This document shows positions 25,522-50,968 of a stretch of DNA of 64,000 nucleotides, piece by piece. A program made the translations under genes and the position numbers. The notes beneath the pieces were generated by a model that was given only the letters and a program-made list of their open reading frames with translations, was not told the origin of the DNA and did no database searches. Where the stretch lies: assembly GCA_964035545.1 (NCBI GenBank), contig OZ037766.1, positions 26,564,343 through 26,628,342 of the forward strand, read 5' to 3'. Source of the DNA: Bugula neritina (lineage: Eukaryota; Bryozoa; Gymnolaemata; Cheilostomatida; Bugulidae). Within the stretch, counting starts at the first letter, position 1, and each line of letters opens with the position of its first letter.

Positions 25522-27592
25522 GGCTATAAAATATAGGTTAAATAAGGATATCTAGGTATAATGGCATTACAACACAAAGTGTTTCATATTGATTTCTATG
25601 AGTACACGTAACAGTAATAATATTGGTCAGGTGCATAAGGTGTAAATTGCAAATCCAAAGTACATAAATTACTAAAGTGTTGCAAAGATAACATGATCAT
25701 ACTTGACGAAAAATTTTTAGGATACAGTATTTCGATCAGTATTACAGATTAAATGTTTTATAAAGCTAAGAAAAGTTGACTAACCTGATTGATTAAACTA
25801 GAGACAGACAATTCCAAGAGATGAACTTGACTGAAACAGTAATAAGCTGTTAGATAAGGAAGTCAATAAATTGCACTAAAAGTTTTCAAACGTAGAAGAA
25901 AAGCAATGACATCCACCTTCTGAAGTAGAGCAAATAACACTACACAGAGTTATTACGCAACGCTCTTCTCATTGTTTAGTGTTAAGTTAAATTGTTAGTT
26001 AGTAGCTGTTAGTATATAGGTTAGTAATTATAGCATTACTAGCATTGTCATACTGAATATTTATTTTTTGCATATTTTATAAAAGTAAAAAATGAGATTT
26101 GTTTCAATGCTTTTAATTTCTAAGCATGCAGCTGAGCTCAAATGCACACACATATTGCTATATCAAACGAAGATGGTTTTACTGTTAGATTTGTTTTAAT
26201 ACATATTTTTAAGACAAAGATGGTTTATATAACGTTATTAAATAATTTACAACATATTCCAAGATGTTAAAGTTCTAGTAAAACATTAATTCAAACCGTT
26301 TTATATTTCATGATTATGTATTGTAATTGAACAGCATGCTGTAGCTTGATGCAAATGATTATGTAAACTTTTCTCTCTGAATGTTCTAAATGTTGTGATA
26401 TATGCAGATTAGTAAGAACAAGCAAAGCTTATCAATATAACAATATTATGGTTTTAATAAAAGCTAAATGTGCAAATAATATATACATATAACTATATAC
26501 TACTATTTTAGGTTTTAGTACAAGAATTTAGCTGCAATAAAAGCCCAAATTTACCAACATAATTTCCCCAACCTGTGTATTTTATCTCTTAGTTTAATTA
26601 GTAATTTGCCATTTAGTTTGAATGTGCAGACTAACATTAGGTGAGAGTTTCTAAAACATATTACAGTAAAACCTTTCAAAAAGAGCATAAATAATTCATA
26701 TATATTATAATAAACGTGGTCAAAAAAATAAAAACTACATAGATAATTTGGAAAAAAGGGTTATTATAGGAAAATGCATCTGGAAACATAATTTAAAATC
26801 TTTGAGAGTAAAAAAGCTGAACTTCTGTGCAAATTCAGGTAGAAAGACTCATTCGCTACTGAAAAGAAAATTCCTAGCATGAGCTCTGTTGCAAGCAGAG
26901 TAAAAACAGGGTACATATCAGTGCAATGGCTGCATCTGCACCAGCCCACAACTAAAAACTAGTTTATTAATATAAATTGCACAATAACTGTGCCAATAAC
27001 AAACAATGTTCATCAATCAGCAGTTAATTTTCAGCAATTACAAAAAAGTAGTTAATATTTTAATACAGTGTTGTTGTTTATTTATATAATATTGTGTTTA
27101 TGCTAACTATCTATATGACAATACTAATTAGGAAAACTGAATTACTTCTCAACTAGAAACACCCATGAAAATAACATAAAAGGCATAAAGATTGCATATA
27201 TAATTAGTCGTGACAGTTGAACTGACCTTTAAAAATTCAAATTTTCTGAATAAAATTTATAACGTAGACTGTGATATTTTGAAAAAATGTCAGTCTTAAA
27301 ATTAAATACCATATATACTATATTCAACATTATACAACTATCAGCTATCAGTATTTTAATGGTGTCCAAATTACCTATACTAGTTAAAAGTGATGAAATC
27401 AAAATATGACAATATTTTTTTAATTTAACTAAAAATTGTGTTAACAAATTAATGAATATAAATTTTATTTTGCTTCAATGTTATAGGAATGTGAAATTAA
27501 AATATATTGTTGAATATTTTTTAACAATTGAATGTCTTGTTTTAAAAAATGTTTTAAATATATGGAATGCCAGCTGACATACTTTCTTAAAC
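25522..27592. other. Divergent intergenic region, no gene recognised
   Basis: AT-rich space between the RhoGAP-like gene (minus) and the intronless gene (plus), so it should hold both promoters. Open frames here (for example 26764-26949 and 27229-27447) look random. Confidence 0.5.
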
Positions 27593-29194
27593 ATGGCCGA
27601 AGCAGCTGGATCTGCTTTACCCAACACATGGGAGGACACACGCGTGTGGGGCTGCGCCCCCGAACAACTTATCTCTAACATTTTCAGAGGCTCTCAAAAA
27701 GTATATTTCACTAAGGCAGGCAGCAGCTCAGAGCATCGGCAGTACTTTGAAGCATTCTTTGCTGGCAGTGCTGACCCAGTAAAGAAATATTTCCGAATTG
27801 AAGTAGGTAACAGTAAACACAGGGAAATCAAGTTTTATGCTGCTAATGGACGCTACTCATCATTGTGCGTGGCTAAATGCTCTATTCAAAGTCCAGACAC
27901 GGACATAATGACGCTAGTTATGATGTACCACAAAAAAGGACAAGCAGTAAATGAGGTTGCAAAAGCAAGACTGACATCAAATGGAGCTGCCGATATAGCG
28001 AATGGAGAAATGCTAAAAGTTGTGAGAAGAGATAACATAATTGTTATTGAAACAGCGCGATATGGCGAAGTGTTGATGCATCTACTCGACATTGAAAAAA
28101 AGGAGCCCAGCAAGTGTGCATTTTTAACACGTTGCATGGGCAAGCAAGATCCAGTTATCATGATTTCTTCTCTTTATTTAGCTTTACATTGCTTTTATTC
28201 AGAAGCAAAAAATGGTCTCTTGTACAGCTTAAATGAGTTGCTATATATTCCTTCAAGTTGTGTTCTTCAGTGCTTGACAGACATAGCGTCGCATGTTTTA
28301 CAGAAAAGACACTGTTTCTTGACAGTAGCAGCTGGAAATGAGCAATGCCTGAACGTCGAGCATGAGCTAATAGTTGGCAATCAACCACATCTTTTTATAC
28401 AGGTTAAAGGAAGAGAACCTAACAGCGGCTTTTTTATCCAGGCTTTTAACAGAAACAATGATGAGGTGTTTCGTCTAGTAGAAGTTTCTAACCGCGACTG
28501 CATACTATATATCAATCAAACTGAAATGATTGGCCAGGTTTCTTTTAGCAGACATCTTACTAGTTACTCAAATCAGAAAGGAGCAGAGGTGATCAGCGGG
28601 CAGAGTAAACAGCACGCCTCACACCCATGCCATGTTACGTTCCGCAGCACACTGTCCATGGCTTTTCTAGCTTCCGCCACAAGCAATCTTATGAATCAGC
28701 TAATAAGAATTCAAAGATTGCACAATTCAAACTTTGAACCCAGTGACTTTGCTGCCATGATCTGTATGACTTTATATCACATTCACTTTGACTCTAATAT
28801 TACCTCGGTAACTGCTGGTTTAGGACCTCCGAGCACTTCTGCAGTAGAACATCCACGGAGATCTTGTCCTGGGAGAACATCCGCCAATCAACATCAAAGC
28901 CAACATCAGAATCTTCCTCCACCTCGATATTCAAGTCATCCCCGACAGTCCCAACAAGCAGCACCATCTGCTCTCCCTAATATGTCCAGTCAACCTACAG
29001 ATTTGCTGAGTTGTTTTCAGGGTAGAGCCTCTACTCAACTTCAGAATCAAAACCAGATCTTAGCACCTTCTTCAGTGTCAGATCTTTCACAGACACAATC
29101 ATCTGATTCTGATTTACAAATAGCTCAGCGCGAACAGTCTCTGTCAGATGCTCTACCTAAGGCTTCCTTAACTGGATATTATCAACAATTTTAA
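27593..29194 (+). CDS. Intronless 533-aa protein with duplicated beta-rich module and Q/S/P-rich tail; family uncertain
   Basis: A single open frame with a good start context (AACATGG) and an AATAAA 87 nt after the stop (29281-29286). It lacks introns, while its neighbours have many. I do not recognise it with certainty. Residues about 15-205 and 215-405 seem to be two copies of one module. Each has a run of short alternating strands (such as YFRIEVGNSKHREIKFYAANG and HLFIQVKG...GFFIQAFN) and ends in a hydrophobic helix (DPVIMISSLYLALHCFYSE; SDFAAMICMTLYHIHFDS). That layout, a beta barrel closed by a central hydrophobic helix, resembles the tubby/LURP-one/phospholipid-scramblase superfamily, but this is inference from pattern. 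Residues 410-533 are low complexity, rich in Gln, Ser and Pro, likely disordered. There is no signal peptide. The intronless form suggests a retrocopy origin, or a lineage that lost its introns. Confidence 0.85.
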   Translation: MAEAAGSALPNTWEDTRVWGCAPEQLISNIFRGSQKVYFTKAGSSSEHRQYFEAFFAGSADPVKKYFRIEVGNSKHREIKFYAANGRYSSLCVAKCSIQSPDTDIMTLVMMYHKKGQAVNEVAKARLTSNGAADIANGEMLKVVRRDNIIVIETARYGEVLMHLLDIEKKEPSKCAFLTRCMGKQDPVIMISSLYLALHCFYSEAKNGLLYSLNELLYIPSSCVLQCLTDIASHVLQKRHCFLTVAAGNEQCLNVEHELIVGNQPHLFIQVKGREPNSGFFIQAFNRNNDEVFRLVEVSNRDCILYINQTEMIGQVSFSRHLTSYSNQKGAEVISGQSKQHASHPCHVTFRSTLSMAFLASATSNLMNQLIRIQRLHNSNFEPSDFAAMICMTLYHIHFDSNITSVTAGLGPPSTSAVEHPRRSCPGRTSANQHQSQHQNLPPPRYSSHPRQSQQAAPSALPNMSSQPTDLLSCFQGRASTQLQNQNQILAPSSVSDLSQTQSSDSDLQIAQREQSLSDALPKASLTGYYQQF

Positions 29195-30113
29195 AACAAA
29201 AACAAAATTATTTTGTTGTAATTTATATTTGAATTCAGTTGTACTCTCCTAAAAAGATCCTAAGCTCTTATAGTAAATTTAATAAATAATGCAAGCTATA
29301 AAATCAAGCTATATATGAATTCTAATAAAATAGACAATTAACTATAATATATTATAGTATACAAGGCAAATTATTGGAAAAGAGTTTTAATCGTCATTTT
29401 TAATACTTGAAAATTCGGCTTAAGTATTTATTCGAAAGACCTTTTTAAACTATTTCATTATTACTTTGATATTATATATTTGTTAAGTCAGCAGGTTTTC
29501 TGAATTTCTTTCCGCCATGCTTGTATAATTCTATAAACCAAACATGTCATATTACTTTTTTCATTCAGATTTAAAATATAACCTAGTTGGAATAAATAAT
29601 AAGAGGCTACAATACTTTGAATGATTTGTAATGGAAATAATTTTTCTTTATATAATTACCTTATAGAAATTGAAACATTTTAACATGATTCACATAAAGA
29701 CATTATATTTAGTGCATGTATGCAACAGAAATTTATTAGAACTAAAATTTTGACCAAATCTTGGATAGGTGCAATACTTAGTGTGTTCTTGTTTTTAGTA
29801 ACATTTAATTCAAAAACGAAGAGTAGATAATTAAACTCATAATAACATTATATTGCATAAATTTGAAAAACTCAATGTACAATTAATTTGTGTTACATGT
29901 ATTGTGTGTGTGTTGTGTGTGTTGCATGTTTGTGGTGCGTGCGTTTTATATTAGATATCAGATGTCACTTACAAATAAAGCGCTGGAAAGTATTAAACTA
30001 CCAAAGACTATAACTTCTTCAAATAATATATTATTATAGTTTATGCTTATATTGTGAGTCTGAGTGTTTAATGTAAAACAACACATTTAGCTTTTTGCAG
30101 ATACACCAGTTGC
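29195..30113. other. Intergenic; start of tandem segment A
   Basis: The first part is the 3' end of the intronless gene. From about 29640 the sequence resembles 33420 and 38760, marking the left edge of the first of three duplicated segments. A short GT-rich tract at 29896-29943 corresponds to longer GT microsatellites in the other two segments. Confidence 0.65.
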
Positions 30114-30119
30114 TTTATT
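30114..30119 (-). terminator. Poly(A) signal, peptide gene A
   Basis: AATAAA on the minus strand, about 125 nt past the stop and conserved at the same place in all three copies (TGCTTTATTG on the plus strand). Confidence 0.7.
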
Positions 30120-30244
30120 GTTCAAAAAACAGGCAATAAACTTTCCATAAATTTGTGCAGAAGGTTATAATCTGTAGAAATGCATGAAGTTTAAACTATT
30201 TTCAACTGTTGATAGTGAAGACAGTTTCCTGGTCAGAAGTTGCT

Positions 30245-31106
30245 TTAGCGTATATTGTGGCATCTGCAGCGTGTACTAGTGGCATCGTACCCAAAACTTG
30301 TGTAACCTTTATTTTCACAAATTTTACTGCATCTGTATACTGCGAGGAAAAGCTCATATGTAGCTGTCACGGAACCTTTTAAAAAGTTAAACGAGCATTT
30401 AATAACATCAACATAATATATTTTAGTATTTTTAGCACATTGTAGGCAATATGCTGGTAGAAATAACCATCATGCTTAAGAACGTAGCAGGTGAAACTTC
30501 CATTAACCTGAAAAACTATCACTATGCATCTCTGAGATGGTGCCCGGTAAAAATGTCACAGGTAAAAATGGAGCTGGCAATAATGGCACAAATAGAAAAG
30601 TATAGGAAAAAGTGGCACATTTTTAATATTAGGGTTTTGGGGTTTGGGAAAGTTTAATATCAGTGTGCAGTTTTTTAAACCTACTTTGCCATTTGTGTCA
30701 TTATTACCTGTGCAATTTTTACCTGCGCCAAATTTATGTGTGCTAATTTTACCTGTGCCCTTTTAAACATGCCATTTTTATCTAAAGTCCATAAAAACAC
30801 AGCAGGTAAAGTTTCCATGGACTTTGTAAACTATCACTACATCGCCAAGACTTATCTTTCATTCAATGCATAGAGTCAGTGTCAATGGATGAAACTACAG
30901 CTACAGGATAAAGCAAACTTTATCCATTGAATTGTGGGAATGTAGTGATTTTGTTCATTAGTAAATATACAGAGATTTTGACGTACATCAATATAAAACT
31001 AATCTTCATTGTTGATGGAATATACAACAGTTATAATATGGTACTTACATGTTGAAATAATGGTGATAAGTACAGCCAGTAACAAAGCAAAACACCTCAT
31101 TTTCAT
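30245..31106 (-). CDS. Small secreted cysteine-rich peptide A (62 aa, defensin-like CxxxC...CxC)
   Basis: Coding exons 31049-31106 and 30245-30375 (189 nt), with a 5' untranslated exon ending at 31381 (donor GTAAAA). The coding donor is GTAAGT and the acceptor TTTTTAAAAG. The N-terminus MKMRCFALLLAVLITIIST is a strong signal peptide. The mature part has Cys at 20, 35, 39, 56 and 58: CxxxC, then KGY at 42-44 and GY at 48-49, then CxC. CxxxC with CxC is the cysteine-stabilised alpha/beta core of invertebrate defensins and related effectors. The residue after the second GY, where defensins have their fourth Cys, is Asp. Basic residues are common near the C-terminus (RCRCHNIR). Function is not proven: it may be antimicrobial, toxin-like or signalling. 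First member of a three-gene tandem cluster. Confidence 0.8.
30539..30793. mobile_element. Palindromic element, CACAGGTAAAAATGG family (copy A1)
   Basis: The left arm has ACAGGTAAAAATGG, GGCAATAATGGCACAAAT and GAAAAGTATAGG. The right arm carries the complements (CCTACTTTGCCATTTGTGTC, ATTATTACCTGTGCAATTTT). A TTTGGGGTTTGGG-type centre separates them. No coding capacity. Related copies lie at 31814, 35210, 36466 and 40826. Confidence 0.65.
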
Positions 31107-31380
31107 TTTTTAGTCTACAGACATATTATTTGTGAAAGTTTGTTAAAATGCAATAAATATATACAGAAAGAAGTTCATAACATGTTTGCGAATTATATAG
31201 CATAAACACACCTTTCAATTTTAATAGAAACACATGTTTTGTAAAAAGCTATGCCACTATAAGTTAGACATAATATTAAGAACTATATGAATGAATCCTT
31301 AACCTGGCAAATGTTTTAATAAATCAAACATATGTAGCAATGTCAGCCAGGGGGTAAAAATAGATAATTTAGTTTTTTAC

Positions 31381-31450
31381 CTGAAGCTTACAATAAACAG
31401 AAATCTTGTATACAGTTATAGTAGTGAAGAAACACCTATAATGTAGTGCA
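31381..31450 (-). promoter_or_regulatory. 5' untranslated exon of peptide gene A (start approximate)
   Basis: Ends in TTGTAAGCTTCAG with a GTAAAA donor. The same exon end followed by GTGAGA or GTAAGA occurs in genes B and C. The acceptor next to the start codon is TGTCTGTAG in A and GTTTGAG in B and C. Confidence 0.6.
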
Positions 31451-31461
31451 AAAAGAGCATC

Positions 31462-31478
31462 TATAATTATATATTATT
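31462..31478 (-). promoter_or_regulatory. TATA-type core promoter, peptide gene A
   Basis: ATAATATATAATTATAG on the minus strand, about 25-40 nt before a conserved TTTTTGCACTACATTATAGG stretch. Conserved in B and, in altered form, in C. Confidence 0.5.
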
Positions 31479-31813
31479 TTTGATTTAGATTATTACACGT
31501 GGCATTCAAATGATTGGTTAACAGGTTGACCCATGCAGCTTCTACAGCTACTATTATGGTTTGATCCAGAACTTTCCGGTCTGTTTGCATTCTATTTTAA
31601 ATTTCTACAAAATACAAAACTTATACAACATATTTAGCTCCGCATTCTAGAACATTTGGTAATTTACCTCAAAGGTCATTTCACCTATAACAAGTTATAA
31701 TTTCTTTGATAGAAGTTTATTCATTCTTTTAAACAAAAGAAACTGTTGAAATAAAAGAGATAACAAGTTTTTTTTAACTTTGTTCATTTTAGTTTAAAGA
31801 TTTTTTTAATGAC

Positions 31814-32062
31814 TGGTGCCTGGTAAAAATAGTACTGGCAATAATGGTACAAATGAAAAAGTAGGTAAAAATAGCAAATTTTTCCCTTATTGGGGTTTAG
31901 TTTTGAGGGTTTAGATTTGAGTGTAAAAATTTGGGGTTTGGGCAAACTTAGTATGTATCAATGAGCCTATTTTTACATACTTTTCCATTTGTGCCATTGT
32001 AACCTGTGTCATTATTACCTGTGTAATTTTTATCTGCACGATTTTTACCTGTGCGATTTTTT
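31814..32062. mobile_element. Palindromic element, CACAGGTAAAAATGG family (copy A2)
   Basis: Left arm CTGGTAAAAATAGTACTGGC then ATAATGGTACAAATGAAAAAG. The right arm is the approximate complement up to ATTTTTACCTGTGCG. The centre is TTGGGGTTTAGTTTTGAGGG. Same position and form in segments B (36466) and C (40826). Confidence 0.65.
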
Positions 32063-32189
32063 ATACCTAAAATCAGAAAATGCTATAACTTCTCTCTCAA
32101 TATACAGGGTTAGTAAAATCCCCAGCTTAGTGTACCAGTCTGCGTCTTTCTGTAATTTAAGATCTGACCTACTTTCTATTACATAATCA

Positions 32190-32640
32190 TTATTTCTGTG
32201 TTCCCATGTAGCAGCTGAATGCTTGCAAGTATGGATTTGCTGTTGCGGTTTTTATTAACCGCGCATCAAATGAAGAACTCATGCTACGAATAGGTACGGA
32301 GTAAATTTCAAATCCCTTTTTGCTTATATATAATACATCCTTATTTGCAATATATATACTATACTCTCTTTTACTACATCCTACGGGCATTAGATCTGTT
32401 TTCTATAAATATTAGTAGCCAATTGATTGCTGATATCTGCCTTTGTCACAAAAGATTTCATTTTTGCATAATATAGATACAATTTTCCGTTGGAGGAACC
32501 GTTGAATGGATTTGCAATTGCCGTTTTCCTTCAATTAATACAGCTTTTGTTACTTGGCTATAAATATCTTTTAATTGCCCATGCCCTGTACATTTTGTTA
32601 AACAGTGACTTTTTAACCCCTCACACCTGCCTTTAAAACC
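32190..32640 (-). pseudogene. Degraded copy of an unrecognised coding block (segment A)
   Basis: Corresponds to the open 132-codon frame in segment C (41332-41730). It keeps an SKREYSIYIANKDVLYISKK-type frame of 66 codons (32190-32390), but the upstream part has an internal deletion of about 110 bp and a frameshift relative to C. Family unknown. Segment B (37200-37640) is degraded in a similar way. Confidence 0.4.
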
Positions 32641-32799
32641 TTTATAAAATCATCATTATTAGAATGTTGCTATCTAAAAACTGTAAATCAATGACAGTTG
32701 GTATAATAAAACGATATTAATGTCAACAGCTATTTAATAAAGTCTATGCATATGTCAATAAATAGAATCTGGTTGACACTGAAACAGCTGTTTTTCACA

Positions 32800-32802
<3 letters not shown>

Positions 32803-32854
<52 letters not shown>

Positions 32855-32871
32855 TATATATATATATATAT

Positions 32872-32911
<40 letters not shown>
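32803..32911. repeat. (TA)n microsatellite
   Basis: About 50 TA repeats with two TAGGTA interruptions at the end of segment A. An equivalent tract ends segment C. Confidence 0.95.
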
Positions 32912-32915
<4 letters not shown>

Positions 32916-32917
32916 CA

Positions 32918-33405
32918 TAGTTGCGTTTATACTTCTACTGAAAAAAGTTCCGATTTTCAGTTAATAATACTTGTCCGGGTACCCCTTTGTAGTCAAACTG
33001 AAAATTGTTGAAATCATATTGATGCGAAAGCTTACTTTCTAAAAATTAAATTTGACTTGCCTAATCGCTTATATTTGATATTTGATATTTGCTATTTGAT
33101 GCCCTTTGTAAACCTCGTGAATTAGTGAAGCTTATAGCATAAAAAGGATAACTGAGAAGGCGTAGACGATATAATTATTGACATATATAAGTACATCATT
33201 TAATCGCCAAAGTCATTACTAAATAACGTTGTTTACAAGGAGTTATTACTCCTTAGGAGTATTATCCTGAAATCAGCCGTTTAAGTTATCACAATACAAA
33301 AAAATTTTTCGAGTGGCTTTTACAATACAATGCAACTCAAAAATGAATTTCACCTCGGTCAAATTGAATTCCTGACTGAAAATAGTGAAGGTATAAACAC
33401 AACTA
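32918..33405. mobile_element. Inverted-repeat element (MITE-like) between segments A and B
   Basis: Ends TAGTTGCGTTTATACTTC and GAAGGTATAAACACAACTA are inverted copies with two or three mismatches. A second inner pair (GAAAATTG/TTTTCAG) may extend the stem. About 488 bp, no open frame. The target duplication is unclear. Confidence 0.55.
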
Positions 33406-33581
33406 AGGATTCAGTATTTTGTCTTTATATAATCACCTTATAGAAATTGAGACATCCCTTTAACATGATTCACATAAAAACTGTATCTATTTGGTGCATG
33501 TACAATAGAAAAATATTAAAACTAAATTTTTTCAAAATCTTATATAGGTGAAATATTTATAGAGTGTTCTTGTTTTTAGTA

Positions 33582-34526
33582 GGGGAAACCTGGGTGATAT
33601 GGGCCACTTAAGCCCACAGCCCAGGCTGACTATGGTTGATTGAAAATTAGTATTTCATCATGTGGGTGCTATCTCTACTGACACACAAACAGAGTTTGAA
33701 GCTCCTATACAGGTGCTTGACTGAGCTATAATTGAAAATTGGTGGACCATATCACCCGGGGATTTTTTGAAATTTCGGGTGATATGGGCCACCACAGACT
33801 CCGTCACATAAAGTCAGCTTTTTTGTGTTGAAAATGCATTTTGCTATATTAAAAAGTAACATAAAACAATATATTTAAAATAAGTGTGTAACAGCTTCTT
33901 TTAATGCCTCCTAACTCCAAGCATTTCAAATATTTTTGAAAAAATATCTTGGCTTCTAAAATACATTGCATGAGTATGAATATTTCAAGCACACATTCTA
34001 CGGCAACTGGCTATATTGTTGTCTAATCAATATTTAGAAGTTTAATGCTTCATCATTTTTTGAAACACTTGAGAAATAGTATTATTTTTCTTCAAACAAG
34101 TATATGAACAGAAAAATTCACGGTCCATATCACCCCTCAAGTGGCGGTCCATATCACCCAAAAATCATGTCACCAAAAATTTTGAATTCCTACAGGCAGA
34201 GAGTGGACAAGTATTATATATACTATTTGGGTATTTATACATACCTTCCACACATTATCTTTAGATACAGGCCCCTTACTTCAGGTAATTTTTTTCAATG
34301 AAAATATATCCACAAAATTTGTGAAAAGTTATAAGAAAATGAGCAAAAAGAGAAAATGTGTCTTTATTTTCTAAGACAAAGAGACAAGTCTAAAATATGT
34401 AGACAGGAAGTTAGATATTCCTAATTCTAAGCAATGAGACACTTTCCAACTTTCTAGTAACCTTGGATACTGCAAAACATGCATGGTCCATATCACCCGG
34501 GTGGTTCATATCACCCAGGTTTCCCC
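33582..34526. mobile_element. 945-bp non-autonomous element with TA target duplication
   Basis: Inverted ends start GGGGAAACCTGGGTGATATG and finish with its complement (CATATCACCCAGGTTTCCCC), one or more mismatches further in. Segments A and C carry the empty site (TTTTTAGTAACATTTA in A), and B reads TTTTTAGTA...TAACATTTA, so the duplicated target is TA, as for Tc1/mariner elements. GGTGATATGGGCCAC words recur inside (33776, 34124, 34147). I see no transposase open frame. Confidence 0.85.
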
Positions 34527-34546
34527 TAACATTTATTTTATAAACG

Positions 34547-34604
34547 AAGAGTGTGTGCGTGTGTGTGCGTGTGTGTGCGTGTGCGTGCGTGTGCGTGTGT
34601 GTGT
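34547..34604. repeat. (GT)n microsatellite, segment B
   Basis: GTGTGTGCGT-type repeat, expanded from the short tract in segment A. Confidence 0.95.
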
Positions 34605-34783
34605 TTTGCAAAAGTGTTTTATATTATATATCAGGTGTAGCTATTACAAATAAAGTGCTGGAAAGTATTAAATTACCAGAGACTATAACATCTTCAAATA
34701 TATTATAGTTTATGCTTATATTGTACGTCTGTGTTTTTAATGTAAAAGAACACATTTAGTTTTTTACAGATACACCAGTTGCT

Positions 34784-34789
34784 TTATTG
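34784..34789 (-). terminator. Poly(A) signal, peptide gene B
   Basis: AATAAA on the minus strand, at the same place as in genes A and C. Because gene B reads past the ancestral stop, it lies only about 65 nt after the new stop. Confidence 0.65.
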
Positions 34790-34855
34790 TTCAGGAAACA
34801 GGCAATAAAATTTCCATAAAGTTATACAAAAAGTTGTAATCCGTGGAAATAAAAT

Positions 34856-35749
34856 TTAAACTATTTGCAACTGTTGGTAGTGAAGACAGTTTCCCGACCA
34901 AAAGTTGTTTAAGTGTTTATTGACGCACGCGCAACGCCCAGTATTGGTAACGTATCCATAATTTGAGTAACCTTTCCTTTTACAAACTTCACTGCATTGG
35001 TAACTTGCGTGGAGAACTTTATATCTAGCTGTCACCGAACCTTTTAAAAATTTAAATGAGCGTTTAACAACATCAACATAATATATTTCAGTATTAGATG
35101 CACATTGTAGGCAATATGTTGGTAGAAATAGCTATCATGCCTAAGACCATATCAGATGAAACTTCTATTAACCTCATAAACTATCACTACATCTCTGAGA
35201 TGGTGTTCGGTAAAACAGCACAGGTAAAAATGGCAGAAATAGAAAAGTAGGAGAAAATGGCACATTTTCAATATTAAGGTTTGGGGGTTTGAAATGAGAG
35301 AGGGGGTTTAGGTTTTGGGTGGGACGAGGGTTTGGGTTTGGGGGTTGGGAAAGTTTAACTTCAGTGTAGCTTTCGTATACCTACTTTGTCATTTGTGCCT
35401 TTATTACCTGTGCCATTTTTACCTGAAATCCCTAAAAACATAGCAGGTGAAGCTTCCATTGACTTCATAAACTATCACTACATCTCCGAGACTTATCTTT
35501 CATTCAATGCATATATAGGGTCAGTGTCAATGGATGAAAGTGCAGCTACAGGTTAAAGCAAACTTTATCCATTGAATAATGGGACCCAGTGATTTTGTTC
35601 ATGGGTAAGTACTTCGAGATTTTGAAGTACATCAATATAAAACTAGTTTTCATTAAGTTGATAGAAAATACAACAGTTATATGGTACTTACATGTTGAAA
35701 TAATGGTAATGAGTACAGCCAGTACCAAAGCAAAACACCTCATTTTCAT
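34856..35749 (-). CDS. Small secreted cysteine-rich peptide B, stop-loss form (80 aa)
   Basis: Coding exons 35692-35749 and 34856-35040 (243 nt). A 5' untranslated exon ends at 36022 (donor GTGAGA). The signal peptide differs from A by one residue (Leu9 to Val). Cys 20, 35, 39, 56 and 58, the KGY and GY elements and RCxC are all kept, with no length change up to residue 62. At the position of the stop codon in A and C (TAA) this gene has TTA. Translation therefore continues for 18 more residues (LNNFWSGNC... to a TAA in former 3' UTR), adding a sixth Cys at 71. Mature identity with A is about 20 of 43 positions. Intact, with normal splice sites and poly(A) signal, so expression is plausible. 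The functional effect of the tail is unknown. Confidence 0.75.
35210..35425. mobile_element. Palindromic element, CACAGGTAAAAATGG family (copy B1)
   Basis: Counterpart of copy A1: ACAGGTAAAAATGGCAGAAA on the left, CTTTATTACCTGTGCCATTT on the right, with a GGGTTTGGGTTTGGGG centre. Segment C lacks this copy. Confidence 0.6.
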
Positions 35750-36109
35750 TTTTTGGTTCTCAAACAAATTATTTGTGAAAGTTTGCTGAAATATAATAAA
35801 CATATACAGAAAGAAGTTCATAATAAACTGTTTTCGAATCATACATAAGCTGTACATCTGCCAATTTTAATGGAAACACACGTTTTGTGAAATGTTATAC
35901 AGCCAAGTTAAACCTATTAGAAACTATATAAATAAATCTATAACCTTGCAGATGTTTTAATAAATCGAACATATATAACAATGTCAGCCAGGGGGTAAAA
36001 ATAGATAATTTAGTTTCTCACCTGAAGCTTACAATAAACAGAAATCTTGTAGGCCCTATGCAGTTATAGTAGTTAAGAAACACCTATAATGTAGTGCAAA
36101 AAGAGCATC

Positions 36110-36123
36110 TATAATTATATATC
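36110..36123 (-). promoter_or_regulatory. TATA-type core promoter, peptide gene B
   Basis: GATATATAATTATAG-like sequence on the minus strand in the same relation to the 5' untranslated exon (ends 36022) as in gene A. Confidence 0.5.
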
Positions 36124-36465
36124 ATTTTTGATTTAGATTATTACACGTGGCATTCAAATGATTGGTTAACAGGTTGACCCATGCAGCCTCTACAGCTACT
36201 ATTTTAGTTTGATCCGAACTTTCCGGTCTGTTTGCATTCTATTTTAAATTTCTACAAAATACAAAATTTATAACAAATTTAGCTTCGCATTCTAGAACAT
36301 TTGTTGATTTACCTCAAAGGTGACGCGGTCATTTCACCCATAACAAGTTATAATTTCTTTTACAGAAGTTTATTTATTCTTTTAAGCAAAAGAAACTGTT
36401 GAAATAAAAGAGGTAACAAGTTTTTTTAACTTTATTCACTTCAGTTTAAAGAAACTGTTAATGAC

Positions 36466-36711
36466 TGGTGCCTGGTAAAAATAGCACAGGCAATAATGGT
36501 ACAAATGAAAAAGTAGGTGAAATTGGCAAATTTATCCCTTATTGGGGTTCGGTTTTGAGGGTTTAGTTTTGAGGGAGGGTTTGGGCAAACTTAACATCAG
36601 TGTGCCATTTTTACCTGTGCCATTTTTACCTACTTTTCCATTTGTGCTATTATTACCTGTGTCATTTTCACTGTGCCATTTTACTTGTGCTGTTTTTACT
36701 TGGGCTGTTTT
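36466..36711. mobile_element. Palindromic element, CACAGGTAAAAATGG family (copy B2)
   Basis: Counterpart of A2. GCACAGGCAATAATGGTACA on the left; TTTTACCTGTGCCATTTTTA and further TGTGCC words on the right. Confidence 0.6.
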
Positions 36712-36761
36712 TATCTAAATTTGTGAAATTGCTATAACTTCCATCTCAATATACAGGGTTA

Positions 36762-37104
36762 GCCTAGGGCCACACTGTGCGTATTTTCGCATGCGAAAAT
36801 TAAAATCACAAGTAGCAAAGGTGTCCACTGTAGCGTCAGTGATGCGTGATAAATAAAGCTTTCATTTTTAAATCGCACTCGCTTTCAATAAAACGCAATT
36901 TGCTGGAATATAGCACCAAATAAAGAAATTGGGCTCGCTGAATAACTACCAGCCAATTAGGTGACGACGACAGAGACGATTCGCACTTGCGTTGAAAATG
37001 CAGAACGACAAGTGCAAACGTTTTCTCAACGCGCACAGTGGACACCTTTGCTAGTTGTGATTTCAATTTTCGCATGCGAAAATACGCACCGTGTGGCCCT
37101 AGGC
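36762..37104. mobile_element. 343-bp foldback MITE with TTA target duplication (PIF/Harbinger-like)
   Basis: Ends GCCTAGGGCCACAC and GTGTGGCCCTAGGC are exact inverted copies, and the inverted repeat extends about 70 bp (TATTTTCGCATGCGAAAAT and GGTGTCCACTG inside). Segment A has the empty site GGGTTAGTAAAA. Here TTA flanks both ends. A 3-bp TTA duplication fits PIF/Harbinger. Related elements are at 47239 and 58364. Confidence 0.85.
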
Positions 37105-38051
37105 TTAGTAAAATCTCCAGGTTAGTATACCAGTCTGCTTTTTTTTTTGCAGTTTAAGATTTGACACACTTTCTATTACATAATCATTTATTCTGTGTTC
37201 TCATGTATCAGATAGATTTGCATTTGCGGTTTTTATTAACCATTCATCAAATGAAGAATTCATGCTACGAATAGGTACGGAGTAAATTTCAAATCCCTTT
37301 TAGCTTATATATAATACATCCTTATTTGCAATATATACTACTATCTTTTTCTACATCCTACGGGCATTAGATCTGTTTTCTATAAATATTAGTTGCCAAT
37401 TGATTGCTGATATCTGCCTTTGTCACAAAAGGTTTCAATTTTGCATAATATAGATAGAATTTTCCATTGGAGGAACCGTTGAATGGATTTGCAATTGCCG
37501 TTTTCCTTCAATTAATACAACTTCTGTTACCTGGCTATAAACATCTTTTAATCAGGCATGTCCTGTCTGTTTTGTTAAACTATGACTTTTTAACAGCTCA
37601 CACCTGCCTTTAAAACCTTTATGAAATCATCGTTATTAGAATTTTGTTATCTAAAACTGTAAATCAATGACAGTTGGGGTATAATAAAACGATATTAATG
37701 TTAACAGCTATTTAATAAAGTCTATACGCATATGTCTATAAATAGAATCTGGTAGACACCAAAACAGCTGCTGTTTACAGAATATATAATCAAAAAAAAG
37801 CAATTCAATTAGATGTTATTTTACTGTGCTACTATTAGTTACGTGCTTCTTTAGCACTCCTCAGGCACATGAATTACTGAATTTAAATTTTTACATTAAA
37901 AAAATCAAGATGTAAAACACAACGTAAAACATAATGCAAATATAGTGGTGACTTTGAGGTTATTATAGGCTTTTAAATATTTAAAAAAATCTATAAAGAA
38001 ACACAATATAGGCACACAATTTATAGCAAATATAATTTTATTGGGTGGTAA

Positions 38052-38760
38052 TTATATAGGTGTTTGAATATTATTTATTGTAGTACATGTATATATAAAA
38101 TATAAAATATAGAATCTCCAAGTCTTATGGCTGCACAGTAAAAAAATTTTTGAATGTCGGCAGGTTGATAGGAGTTCATTTTGCTTGTTTAAAGTACACA
38201 TGTTAGGTTTTGTATAAAATAAAAAAATATTCCCATAAGCATAAATTACGCGGTATTGTACAGTTTCAATTGTTTCAATATTTTCCAACTTATATTGTGT
38301 TTAATGTTTTTGTTAGTTAGTTGACAAATGTATTTACTAAGTTCTGCCTAGTTCGCTTTCTCTTTGTTTTTAAATGACAATTTGCAGTTTGAATATCTTA
38401 GTTTGAAAGATCCTTCGCTCAGGCCAATGTACATTGCAGGCTCTATTTCAGCAGTTTCTACAGTTGATTGGTATATTACATTGCTTTCCTGACAGTTTTC
38501 TTTTAGTGGACAGCTTTCTCTTTCTCTGCCGTTGTAGTTTTTTTGTGGAAGTTTTGTTTTTGTGTTTCTTTTTTTTAATATTCTATTATTGTGGGCGCTT
38601 ATATATTATTGTCTGTTTTATTTTTGGCATACAACTTTAGCTACCTTTCATATTGTTTATATTAATTATTTTATAGAATAGATGTTGCTTCGGGAATTCT
38701 TCATTCATTATTTTAAAAAAGGTTTTTGCAATTTTTGTGGCTACATGTTAATTGGCTGTA
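38052..38760. other. Spacer between segments B and C
   Basis: AT-rich, T-rich on the plus strand at 38500-38640. The open frames have no recognisable domain and read as simple T-rich sequence. Confidence 0.4.
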
Positions 38761-38974
38761 TATGATGGATTGTTTGACGTGATTTGCATAAAAATGTACC
38801 GTTTGGTGCATGCAAAATAAAAATTTATTAGGCTGAAATTATTGACAAAATCCTATATAGGGGTGTATTATCTATTGCTTTCTTGTTGTTAGTTACATTT
38901 AAGTTAGAATAAACGAAGAGTGGATAATTTACTCATAATTATATATTTATATTATACATTTGAAAAATTCAAGG

Positions 38975-39245
38975 TAAAATATGTGTTGTGTGTGTTGTGC
39001 GTGTGTTGTGTGTGTGTTGTGTGTATGTGTGTTGTGTATGTGTTGTGTGTGTGTTGATTTGTGTTGTGTGTTGTATGTATTTGTGTGTATGTGTTGTGTG
39101 TGTGTTGTGGGTGTGTTTGTGTGTGTGTTGTTTGTGTGTTGTGTGTGTTGTGTATGTGTTGTGTGCATGTGTGAGCGTGTGTGTGTGTGTGTGCGTTTTC
39201 GTGTGTGTGCTTGTGCGTGTGTGTGTGTATGCGTTGTTCATGTGT
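38975..39245. repeat. (GT)n-rich microsatellite, segment C
   Basis: About 270 bp of TGTGT/GTGTTGTGTGT. Open frames of mostly Cys/Val or Thr/His here are artefacts of the repeat. Confidence 0.95.
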
Positions 39246-39410
39246 GTTTTACATTATATCAGGTATAGTTTATAAATAAAAAGCTGAAAAGTATAAAATT
39301 ACCAAAGACTATAACTTTTTCAAATATATTATAGTTTATGCTTAAATGCTTTGCGCCCGTGTTTTTAATGTAAAAGAACACATTTAGTTTTTTGCAGATA
39401 CACCAGTTGC

Positions 39411-39416
39411 TTTATT
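39411..39416 (-). terminator. Poly(A) signal, peptide gene C
   Basis: AATAAA on the minus strand in the conserved TTGCTTTATTGTTTAGG context, about 120 nt after the stop. Confidence 0.7.
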
Positions 39417-39537
39417 GTTTAGGAAACAGGCAATACAATTTCCATAAATTTATTCAAAAAGTTGTAATATGCGGAAATAAAATTTAAACTATTTGCAACT
39501 GTTGGTAGTGAAGACAGTTTTCCGGCCAAAAGTTGTT

Positions 39538-40116
39538 TTAGTGTTTATTGCTGCATGTGCAGCGTTTTGTATTGGTAACGTATCCATAATATCTGTAACC
39601 TTTATTTCTACAATAGTCCCTGCATTTGGAAAGTGTGCGGAAATATCTAGGTCCAGCTGTCACGGAACCTTTTAAAAATTTAAATGAATATTTAACAACA
39701 TAAATATATATCTCTGTATTAAAAACATTGTAGGTAATATGCTGGTAGAAATAGCTATCATTCTTAAGAACATATCAGATGAAACTTCTATTAACCTCAT
39801 AAACTATCACTACATCTCTGAGATGGTGCACTACATCTCCGAGACTTATCTTTCATTCAATGCATAGGGTCAGTGTCAATGGATGAAACAACAGCTTCAT
39901 GCAGGTTAAAGCAAACTCCAACCACAAATATCTTATCCATTGAATTGTGGGAATGCAGTGATTTTGTTCATTAGTAAATACTTCGAGATTTTGACGCACA
40001 TCAATATAAAATTAATGTTCATTGTTGATAGAAAATACAACAGTTATATGGTACTTACATGTTGAAATAATGGTGATAAGTACAGCCAGTAACAAAGCAT
40101 AACACCTCATTTTCAT
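39538..40116 (-). CDS. Small secreted cysteine-rich peptide C (62 aa)
   Basis: Coding exons 40059-40116 and 39538-39668 (189 nt). A 5' untranslated exon ends at 40402 (donor GTAAGA). The signal peptide differs from A at one residue (Phe6 to Tyr). The Cys pattern is identical (20, 35, 39, 56, 58), with KGY, GY and RCTC. The segment between Cys20 and Cys35 is wholly different from A and B after SVTA (GPRYFRTLSK). The region around CRDYC is rich in Arg and Tyr, so the peptide is strongly basic. From residue 46 to 54 it is closer to B (YYGYVTNT). The shortest intron of the three (390 nt) reflects loss of one palindromic element. Role as for gene A: secreted effector, function unproven. Confidence 0.8.
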
Positions 40117-40483
40117 TTTTTGGTTCTCAAACAAATTATTTGTGAAAGTTTGCTGAAATATAATAAACATATACAGAAAGAAGTTCATAACTTTTTTGCG
40201 AATCATATAACATAATATACATTTTTCAATTTTAATGAAATCGCATGTTTTTTAATCACCCGTCAAAAGCTACGCAACTATAAGTTGAACATATTAAGAA
40301 CTATATCAATGAATCTTATAGGGACTGGCAAGTGTTTCAGTAAATCAAACATCTATAGCAATGTCAGCCAGGGAGTAAAAATAAATTATTTAGTTTCTTA
40401 CCTGAAGCTTACAATAAACAGAAATCTTGTAATCTGTTATAGTTATAGTGAAGAAACACCTATAATGTAGTTCAGAAAGAGCC

Positions 40484-40497
40484 TTTACTTATATATC
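40484..40497 (-). promoter_or_regulatory. TATA-type core promoter, peptide gene C
   Basis: GATATATAAGTAAAG on the minus strand, upstream of the untranslated exon ending at 40402. It differs from A and B just 3' of the TATA, so expression level may differ. Confidence 0.45.
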
Positions 40498-40825
40498 ATT
40501 TTTGATTTAGATTATTACACGTGGCATTCGAATGATTGGTTAACCACTTGACCCATGCAGCCTCTACAGCTGTTATATAGTTTGATCCAGAATCTTCCGC
40601 TCTGTTTGTATTCTATTTTGAGTTTCTACAAAATACAAAACTTACAACATATTTAGCTCTGCATTCTAGGACATTGGTTAATTTACCTCAATTAAGGTGA
40701 CACAGTCAGTTCACCTATAACAAGTTACTATATATTTGTTCATTCTTTTAAGCAAAAGAAACCGTTGAATTATAAAAGATAACAGGTTCTTTTTAACTTT
40801 ATTCACTTCAGTTTAAAGAAACTGT

Positions 40826-41028
40826 TAATGACTGGTGCCTGGTAAAAATGGCTCAGGCAATAATGGCACAAATGGAAAAGTAGGTAAAATTGGCAAATTT
40901 TCATTATTGGAGTTTAGTTTTGAGGGTTTAGATCTGAGTGTGAAAGTTTAGAGGGGGGGGGGTTTGGGCAAACTTAGCATCAGTGTGCCATTTTTACCAG
41001 TGCCATTTTTACTTGTGCTGTTTTTATC
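40826..41028. mobile_element. Palindromic element, CACAGGTAAAAATGG family (copy C2)
   Basis: Counterpart of A2 and B2: CTGGTAAAAATGGCTCAGGC on the left; CATTTTTACCAGTGCCATTT on the right. Confidence 0.6.
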
Positions 41029-41331
41029 TAAATTTGTAAAATCGCTATAACTTTTATCTCAATATATACAGGGTTAGTAAAGTCTCCTGGTTAGCTGTGC
41101 ACCAGTCTGCTTATTTTTTGCAGTGTAAGATCTGACACACTTTCTATTACATTATCATTTTTTCTGTGTTCCCATGCATCAGATGGATGCTTGCAAGTAT
41201 GATTTGCTGTTGAGGTTTTTATTAACCACGCACCAAATGAAGAACTCATGCTACGAATAGGTACGGAGTAAATTTCAAATCCCTTTTAACTTATATACAT
41301 CCCTATTTGCAATATATACTACTCTCTTTTT

Positions 41332-41730
41332 CTACATCCTCTGAGCATTAGATCTGTTTTCTACATATATTAGTCGCCAAGATTGCTGATATCTGCCTTT
41401 GTCACAAAAGATTTCATTTTTGTGTGACCTGTTTACAGGCTTTGCATAATAAAGATAGAATTTTCCGTTGAAGGAACTTTTTAAATGGATAAATGCAATT
41501 CCAGTTTCTCTCAATTCATTAACTTTTTTCAAACATTGATTGAAAAATTCATTCGCATGATTGGAATCATGGGATGTAAACGTAGTGATATAGAATATGG
41601 GTGACGTGGACAGCTGCTGATTTCCAGGTGCTACTTGGTTATAAATATCTTCTAATCGGGCATGCGCTCTGTATTTTGTTAAACTGTGACTTTTTAACCC
41701 CTCACACCTGCCTTTAAAACCTTTATGAAA
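41332..41730 (-). other. Open frame of 132 codons, unrecognised, conserved block of segment C
   Basis: A stop-free stretch runs from just after a TGA at 41731 to a TAG at 41332. It contains KSHSLTKYRAHARLEDIYNQ, NEFFNQCLKKVNELRETG and GKFYLYYAKPVNRSHKN. It has no clear start codon at its left end, and an acceptor-like AAAGGCAG precedes it, so it may be an internal exon. Composition is protein-like, not repeat-like. The A and B segments have shortened, frameshifted versions. I do not recognise the family. It may be a partial gene carried along by the segment duplications. Confidence 0.45.
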
Positions 41731-41880
41731 TCAGCATTATTAGGATTTTGTTATCTAAAAACTGTAAATCATTGCCAGTTGGTATAATAAAATGATATTA
41801 ATGTCAGTAGCTATTTAATAAAGTCTACACATATGTCTATAAATAAAATCTGGTAGACACCGAAGCAGCTGCTGTTCACA

Positions 41881-41881
<1 letters not shown>

Positions 41882-41941
<60 letters not shown>
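41882..41941. repeat. (TA)n microsatellite, end of segment C
   Basis: About 30 uninterrupted TA repeats after the conserved ACAGAATATATA boundary. Confidence 0.95.
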
Positions 41942-41942
<1 letters not shown>

Positions 41943-49800: not shown

Positions 49801-50968
49801 ACTGTGCTTAATTTTAATAGATCAAAGCTTATGCACCAACATATTATTTTGATTTTATTTATTTATATTCCAAACTATGCTACATTTTGTGTGGTATTGT
49901 TACAAATTTAACTAGAATTATGTTGTAAACATTGTAATATTATATTCAATTTCTCTAGTTATATTGCGTGTGGTCATGCAACCACTAGAAATAATTCTAT
50001 ATAAGCTAATCGCACTTGCAACTTTTTTGTTAGTAGCCCATTGTATATGAACCATTTAGTAGCTGTAGTGGAGAAATTGAGATAGCCTAAGCTCTTTAAA
50101 TTTTTCTCATAGCTTTTGGTTTGGGCGCTGGTTGAAATTCTTGCGAGAACATAACTTCTTTTGGCACGCAGGCTTTTCTCAATTTCTCCATTACTGCACC
50201 TACCTCATAATATAAACTAGCTGCAACTTGTAGACTTTCAACCATAATTTCATCAATTATAATTCCAATAACTTTTGCAGATGGGCTTGGAATGCACCAT
50301 ATGATAAAATAAACTTTAAGATAACCTCCTTAGAATGTTCCAAAGAATTTCTAGATTACGAATATAGACTATTATTTGTGAGGTAAGTAGAATACAGTCA
50401 TTTTCAAACATCCGTCAATACTATAGCGAAACTCACGTCTCCTGACTATTAATCAATTCTGTTATGTTTTAGAAACCCTTATGAGCGGCTAGTATCTGGG
50501 TACAAGAACAAAGTATTAGAAAAGAATGGGTTGTACGTCAAAACATACAACAAACCATGTCCGTGGTTGACTTTAGACCCCAAATATAACCAAACGTCTC
50601 TTAATTTCTCGCAGTTTGTGTCTTGTATACTAGAAACTGCTAGAGGTCAGAGTTCAGATTTATCTTCTCGGAAAGCTGGAATACTTCTAGACCACCACTG
50701 GGCTCCACAGGTGCACCTCTCATTACCGTGTACAGCTATGTACACTCACATAGGCACATATGATCATTTTGCTGACGACGCAAACGAGATGATCCGAATT
50801 CACAAATTTAATGCCACTTTAAAGCGAATCAATCAGACTCCTAAAAGCTTAAGCCGTACTCTAGAATTTTGGTACAAGCAGTTGAGTGTTGAGCAGCTAG
50901 TAGGACTTCAGCAGTTATATAAATACGACTTTGAATTATTTGGGTATGATCCTTCTCCCCCATTATAG
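46862..50968 (+). CDS. Carbohydrate sulfotransferase, HNK-1 ST/CHST8-14 family (333 aa, 5 exons)
   Basis: Golgi type II membrane enzyme that should transfer sulfate from PAPS to a sugar on a glycoprotein or proteoglycan. Exons 46862-46963, 48450-48580, 49395-49565, 50281-50382 and 50473-50968 join in frame (1002 nt). Residues about 10-26 form the signal anchor (WSIVTIGCLLCYLLLSC), followed by a charged stem (35-77). The 5'-phosphosulfate loop is PKCGWTTW (111-118). The 3'-phosphate motif is RNPYERLVSGYKNK from Arg169, preceded by LLFV. Likely N-glycosylation sites include NQT and NFS in the last exon. The C-terminus keeps the family's LYKYDFELFGY. Exact acceptor sugar and orthology (CHST8, 9, 10, 11-14) cannot be set by eye. 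An AATAAA lies at 51137-51142. Convergent with the NDUFC2-like gene. Confidence 0.9.
47239..47676. mobile_element. 438-bp MITE with TTA target duplication, same superfamily as 36762
   Basis: Inverted ends GTGTAGGGCCACA and TGTGGCCCTACAC, flanked on both sides by TTA. GAGAAATCCCATT near the left end pairs with AATGGGATTTCTC near the right. It lies in intron 1 of the sulfotransferase gene. No coding capacity. Confidence 0.8.
48180..48262. repeat. 16-bp tandem repeat (CACCCTCCCTCCCCAT)
   Basis: Four copies in intron 1 of the sulfotransferase gene, preceded by more C-rich sequence. Confidence 0.9.
48626..48769. mobile_element. 144-bp MITE with TAA target duplication
   Basis: Ends GGGCGCTT and AAGCGCCC are exact inverted copies, flanked by TAA on both sides. 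CTCATTGATGAATTTACTC and TCCTCAATGAGCTTCG suggest an inner foldback. It lies in intron 2 of the sulfotransferase gene. Confidence 0.65.

Follow-up and report, generated by a model that had tools for sequence, protein, structure and literature searches.

Invertebrate defensins of the cysteine-stabilised alpha/beta (CS-alpha-beta) superfamily, among them the insect defensins and mytilin and myticin, carry a CxxxC motif in a helix and a CxC motif in the last strand. Here we examine a tandem trio of genes (A, B and C) that shares both motifs and lies within a 64,000-nucleotide stretch of chromosome 2 of the bryozoan Bugula neritina (contig OZ037766.1, positions 26,564,343 to 26,628,342; hereafter the window, whose own numbering is used for features within it). 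We consider it likely that these genes arose by recent duplication within a bryozoan family of secreted, cationic CS-alpha-beta host-defence peptides that has expanded in this lineage. An initial annotation, made from the sequence alone, had linked the trio to the CS-alpha-beta fold and proposed it as an undescribed system; the first part is supported by the motifs, a predicted fold and six-cysteine paralogues elsewhere in the genome, whereas the second gives way to a more modest description, since the trio most likely adds a new branch, with two disulfides, to a known superfamily.

In common with the invertebrate defensins, the Bugula peptides have a signal peptide and a cationic mature peptide of about 38 residues, and six cysteines are present in an array of relatives on chromosome 9. 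Unlike them, the trio and most dispersed members lack C1 and C4 (the cysteines of the canonical six-cysteine framework being numbered C1 to C6), and no pro-region is obvious by eye. Several other systems offer partial parallels. The nasonins of Nasonia (PMC2853521) likewise combine CXXXC with CXC, have a phase-1 intron after the signal peptide (nasonin-1) and represent an expansion within one lineage; they differ in that they belong to an insect, that the solved nasonin-1 appears on reading to keep a cysteine at the C4 position (GSCV), and that descent from a common gene finds no support here. Myxobacterial AdDLP (PMC5116183) likewise has four cysteines that fit only the cysteine-stabilised helix (CSH) motif and has been proposed as a possible ancestor of the superfamily, although it is bacterial and is compared with the Bugula peptides by description only. 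The atypical defensin-like peptides of Zymoseptoria (PMC5234102) likewise form a large family specific to one lineage, in which peptides with typical and with atypical cysteine frameworks are united by a conserved gene structure. In those peptides, however, the CxxxC or CxC spacing is altered while six cysteines are kept, and the overall charge is anionic; in Bugula the motifs are kept, C1 and C4 are lost and the peptides are cationic. Finally, DvirARP of Drosophila (PMC11116330) is likewise derived from a defensin and went from three disulfides to two after duplication, but that reduction removed C2 and C3 and abolished the fold, whereas Bugula has lost C1 and C4 instead and is predicted to retain the CS-alpha-beta core. 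Big defensins join a hydrophobic N-terminal domain to a six-cysteine domain of beta-defensin type. They have been reported in the bryozoan Flustra foliacea (PMC7203481). Among the matches listed in searches of Creative Commons-licensed literature there was no paper on CS-alpha-beta defensins of bryozoans, nor was there one among the matches listed for tunicate, lineage-specific or two-disulfide defensins.

A tandem trio of peptide genes

All three genes lie on the minus strand, and reading and translating that strand confirmed that the genes and their exon junctions are real. The junctions proposed in the initial annotation (31049/30375 in gene A, 35692/35040 in gene B and 40059/39668 in gene C) proved exact: signal-peptide exons of 58 coding nucleotides (31106-31049, 35749-35692 and 40116-40059) each end in ACAT followed by the donor GTAAGT, and TTTTTAAAAG directly precedes each mature-peptide exon. 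The mature exons span 30245-30375 in A and 39538-39668 in C, each running to a TAA, and 34856-35040 in B, which adds an 18-residue C-terminal extension containing Cys71. As had been proposed, the splice phase is identical (phase 1 in all three) and the proteins, split over introns, fall between 62 and 80 residues, the joined frames giving precursors of 62 (A), 80 (B) and 62 (C). The proposed 5' untranslated exon is also supported, in that a TATA box (31467-31474, 36115-36122 and 40489-40496 in A, B and C) and a donor, CTTCAG followed by GT, are conserved in all three. (Each such exon, at 31381-31445, 36022-36090 and 40402-40464, has its 3' end at this donor, while its 5' end is inferred from the TATA box.) An AATAAA poly(A) signal lies 70-128 nucleotides past the first base of the stop codon in each gene (30114-30119, 34783-34788 and 39411-39416), and gene C has a second AATAAA 38 nucleotides nearer the stop.

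Direct-repeat comparison indicates that the three segments are true tandem duplicates, as first described, with repeat families (for example D2, D4, D5, D7 and D10-D13) that are 63-98% identical and a spacing of roughly 4.0-5.0 kb between segments. The layout is not a product of chance, because the same layout recurs at unlinked loci and because three relatives are annotated in an independent Bugula assembly.

A dispersed family with a six-cysteine array

Searching the genome with single members, combined with pattern scans of the flanks, turned up at least 35 distinct loci on five chromosomes, a count that is itself a lower bound. The trio therefore stands as described, but not as the whole of the family; further copies, which the initial annotation had suggested looking for, are abundant. 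Chromosome 2 holds one locus besides the three in the window, chromosome 6 holds four, chromosome 3 eight and chromosome 1 one, while chromosome 9 carries five at 7.47-7.49 Mb and 13 at 4.45-4.57 Mb. Two candidates were excluded (L009, E 2.9, and C1:13617773 on chromosome 1, E 0.012 with four stops). L046 (E 0.8) was counted, despite a stop, because both a signal exon and the cysteine core are present. Of the 35 loci, 32 have a signal exon that ends in a phase-1 donor, and none was found for L007, L027 or L056. Because the scans outside the window required phase 1, a GT start and a length of 40-80 nucleotides, the phase shared by those loci is in part a product of the search; the near-constant length of 49-52 nucleotides and the mostly GTAAGT-like donors were not among the requirements. 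Stop codons interrupt the mature exon ahead of its last cysteine at L007, L027 and L046.

The 13 loci at 4.45-4.57 Mb form an array (chromosome 9, 4451745-4568509; L031, L033-L037 and L039-L045) in which genes occur in both orientations and encode a nearly identical peptide, SYGCPKYPSKCKKYCKGKGY[SN]SYKCSGSSCKCLKYHGK. Its spacing, C-x6-C-x3-C-x9-C-x4-C-x-C, is the canonical CS-alpha-beta framework quoted in PMC5234102. Among the 19 mature forms other than those of the array, 14 have four cysteines, four have five (B, L026, L048 and L049) and L051 has three. C1 and C4 are both missing from the four-cysteine forms, and B and L026 consist of the four-cysteine core plus a C-terminal cysteine. L048 and L049 (chromosome 9, 7476180-7479389) keep C1 and not C4, and could represent an intermediate or a source of covalent dimers.

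A profile built from 19 family members matched, among 145 candidates, three proteins annotated as hypothetical in the draft genome of Bugula neritina (E 1e-15 to 2e-12). One of these is 95% identical to L008, and on comparison its gene model fuses a 5' exon, without a frame change, to the signal exon. Since AUGUSTUS was run with transcriptome hints to annotate that draft (PMC7576161), these models lend modest support to the splicing, short of proof of transcription.

A candidate promoter module

In each of A, B and C the word GTTAACCAATCA (31511-31522, 36159-36170 and 40533-40544, minus strand) is found 36 nucleotides upstream of the ATATATAA box. In the first 1200 bases of each of the 29 other loci scanned, the exact word is present at four; allowing up to one mismatch it is present at seven, against 0.3 expected from 20 block shuffles (reverse complement, one; reversed word, none), and allowing up to two mismatches at 14, against 3.15 expected (reverse complement, three; reversed word, two). 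Across the 216 Mb genome, the word followed 25-50 nucleotides later by TATATAAG occurs at four places, all in the family (gene C, L053, L030 and L052), and the control matches none. The exact form of GTTAACCAATCANNTGAA occurs at five places, again all in the family (genes A and B, L053, L030 and L052). One mismatch adds 27 places (32 in total) against 11 for the reversed control, and five of the 27 lie near known family loci. Pattern scans of 2.2 kb at each of three of the 22 others revealed no family gene. The one-mismatch word was thus rejected as a finder of new members, and specificity is shown only for the exact word or for the word with a TATA box. We read GTTAACCAATCA together with the TATA box as a putative promoter module of the family, shown for about half of its members.

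Mature peptide and predicted fold

Cysteines occur at residues 5, 20, 35, 39, 56 and 58 of all three precursors, with Cys71 as an addition in gene B. The cysteine pattern first proposed for the trio comprised residues 20, 35, 39, 56 and 58. The last four hold, but the column of Cys20 contains Gly, Ala, Ser, Thr, Asp or Ile, and never Cys, in 16 aligned paralogues, and SVTA offers a plausible cleavage site (cleavage after SVTA being judged by eye). Cys5 and Cys20 are therefore probably within the signal peptide, and the mature core of the trio probably consists of four cysteines, C35-x3-C39...C56-x-C58. By inspection the hydrophobic leader occupies its own exon. The mature peptide is about 38 residues long (56 in gene B), and its net charge was +3 to +10 in all 20 members for which it was computed. 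The family thus has the signal peptide and cationic mature peptide of secreted antimicrobial peptides.

The Cys2-x3-Cys3 and Cys5-x-Cys6 motifs are present in the three window genes and in 19 of 19 aligned members (not part of this alignment were L056, the disrupted loci and L051, where Tyr stands at the C2 position). The initial annotation had suggested predicting the structure of the mature region, and a model of the gene C peptide has the corresponding topology, in which CxxxC lies on a helix and CxC on the second of the two strands that follow; it overlays mytilin at 1.2 A over 32 residues and also overlays insect defensins, at low Z. C1 and C4 are a bonded pair in the canonical six-cysteine fold (PMC5234102). 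Neither is found in the probable mature peptide of the trio, and the 13-copy array has both.

Where bit scores were given, known protein families were approached but not reached at Pfam's curated cut-offs: scores were 14.1 bits against 20.4 for Defensin_2, 11 against 25.1 for Gamma-thionin, at most 16.0 against 28.5 for Myticin-prepro and 25.4 against 27 for Scorpion_toxin_alpha-beta (PF14866). Myticin-prepro nevertheless matched 11 of 19 members at E of 1 or less (best 9e-4). Single-sequence searches with gene B and with the six-cysteine array gave no match in 5.8 billion proteins, a single-sequence search of PDB sequences with gene B gave none either, and Rfam reported nothing at gathering scores within the window. 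Matches to the WSC domain (best 3e-5 for L014 and 1.3e-4 for gene C) were below cut-off with partial coverage of the model and were set aside as short matches to a cysteine pattern; those of various members to Toddler, Imm17 and viral Pfam names were taken as noise.

Divergence of the mature exon and the C-terminal tail

Pairwise comparison of the trio indicates that the mature exon is its least conserved segment, differing at 26-29% of sites against 11.5-18.5% for pooled noncoding sequence and 2-7% for the signal exon, which is 93-98% identical. (Pooled noncoding sequence comprises the two introns and 165 nucleotides after the stop, counted for gene B from the A/C stop position and so including its coded tail.) The excess of mature over noncoding differences had one-sided Fisher p values of 0.0071 for A-B, 5.5e-6 for A-C and 3e-5 for B-C. 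By the Nei-Gojobori method, nonsynonymous divergence (dN) in the mature part was 0.39-0.53 against synonymous divergence (dS) of 0.17-0.34 over about 23 synonymous sites, the A-B pair giving merely 0.41 against 0.34. All four cysteines, KGY and GY are retained. In the chromosome 9 array the order is inverted: across 78 pairs, identity is 97.7% in the mature exon, 88.0% in the introns and 86.1% in the 3' untranslated region (UTR). Because the mature exon is the least conserved segment in the trio but the most conserved in the array, these patterns suggest that there are two evolutionary regimes, in which the trio branch is diversifying and the array branch is held fixed.

The ends of the peptides differ as well. 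In A and C a TAA stands just before a tail that gene B alone reads through, and A has a further TGA downstream. The word [NT]C[LF] recurs 12-14 codons past CxC (within 30191-30244 in A and 39484-39537 in C), in frame 0 at seven of 23 loci (A, B, C, L007, L008, L038 and L056), in frame +1 at none and in frame +2 at two; of the seven in-frame cases only gene B is free of stops up to the word, and L026 terminates in NC with no residue following. The tail may be the remnant of a once longer peptide or, alternatively, a 3' UTR element that is conserved. Conservation as DNA or RNA appears the better account, because two cases are out of frame.

Interpretation and alternatives

If the trio belongs, as we think likely, to an expanded family of host-defence peptides, each gene would be transcribed from its own TATA promoter and its 5', signal and mature exons would be spliced together, and the peptide, in keeping with what is established for the superfamily, would be secreted. 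The predicted fold of the mature peptide is an alpha-helix packed against a sheet of two strands and stabilised by two putative disulfides, C35-C56 and C39-C58; the N-terminal C1-C4 disulfide of canonical defensins is absent as a pair. Loss of that bond would free the N-terminal loop, which may be the part being varied. The peptides would probably act by binding to the surfaces of microbes and disturbing them, or by neutralising what microbes produce, and we propose that their exposed residues may have diversified under conflict. Such a family would give access to the innate immunity of a phylum, and of a species that has been studied for the symbiont it carries and for bryostatins. It would also provide a natural experiment on the defensin scaffold, with paralogues that have or lack the third disulfide in one genome, one branch fixed and one diversifying, and the promoter word offers a sequence handle on part of the family.

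Several points weigh against this account. The trio does not have the six, eight or ten cysteines that PMC7203481 gives for the superfamily (PMC5116183 allows 4-12, and treats the four-cysteine myxobacterial peptides as a possible ancestral state). Gene conversion could have homogenised the introns of the trio and so weakened the case for diversification, although it would not make the mature exon diverge. A tree of 22 sequences is unrooted and weak at depth, with six of 19 inner branches well supported, and does not root the family; loss from six cysteines to four would be the simpler reading than an ancestral four, because the four-cysteine forms of Bugula coexist with six-cysteine paralogues. 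Lastly, the reading frames of A and C end ahead of the tail that is kept in B. Here the short form looks like the family norm and gene B like an extension, because of 23 rows examined all but that of gene B have their first stop within 12 codons past CxC, though the reverse may hold instead.

Bugula neritina is known for its bacterial symbiont, and legumes for their nodule cysteine-rich peptides. A repertoire working like those legume peptides would serve to confine the symbiont, not to kill pathogens, a role that we regard as unlikely. The pairing in the trio of a conserved signal exon with a hypervariable four-cysteine mature exon would suit such a role, two of 19 members show a marginal match to the Nodulin_late model (best E 0.045), and B. 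neritina is the bryostatin source whose draft-genome paper mentions host-symbiont interactions (PMC7576161). However, the Nodulin_late match is weak, and large expansions of defensins exist without symbionts, for example in Nasonia (PMC2853521) and Zymoseptoria (PMC5234102). A broader scheme, speculative and about as improbable, has a defensin turned into a diversified two-disulfide repertoire by loss of C1-C4 under one promoter module, with the fast branch managing a vertically transmitted, drug-producing symbiont and the near-identical six-cysteine array doing generic antimicrobial work.

It is quite unlikely that the peptides are chemical deterrents or channel-directed peptides that aim the CS-alpha-beta scaffold at predators or competitors in the manner of scorpion K-channel toxins. 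Alpha-KTx peptides are among the closest PDB sequences and folds, and a diversifying mature exon would fit, but the same searches return defensins equally well and the fold alone cannot separate the two. Bryozoans, moreover, are not known to have a venom apparatus. A different small disulfide fold that merely resembles CS-alpha-beta through CxxxC and CxC is very unlikely, given the six-cysteine paralogues with classic spacing and the overlay of the helix-strand-strand model on mytilin. We consider it highly improbable that A and C are decaying pseudogenes whose fast mature-exon change reflects lost constraint, for although both stop before the tail, A with a second stop, and three of the 35 loci are interrupted before the last cysteine, the mature exon has changed more quickly than the introns and UTRs have, contrary to expectation under neutral decay, while the cysteines, KGY, GY and signal exon are kept and the short form looks normal.

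Other features of the window

A 538-codon open frame on the plus strand (27578-29194), with no Pfam family above cut-off, converges on gene A from its 3' side. Farther away, exons of an importin-5-like gene lie on the minus strand at 9640-17502, with matches to TPR_IPO5 (E 1e-20, 17110-17502) and Importin_rep_6 (E 1.5e-10, 9640-10146), and 21- to 41-bp minisatellites are found within the same interval. About 71 copies of a 22-bp tandem repeat fill 58972-60541, where three overlapping minus-strand frames of 541-587 codons stay open; these look like artefacts of the repeat. An exon of a gene of the Sulfotransfer_2 family (E 5e-24) is present on the plus strand at 50453-50968.

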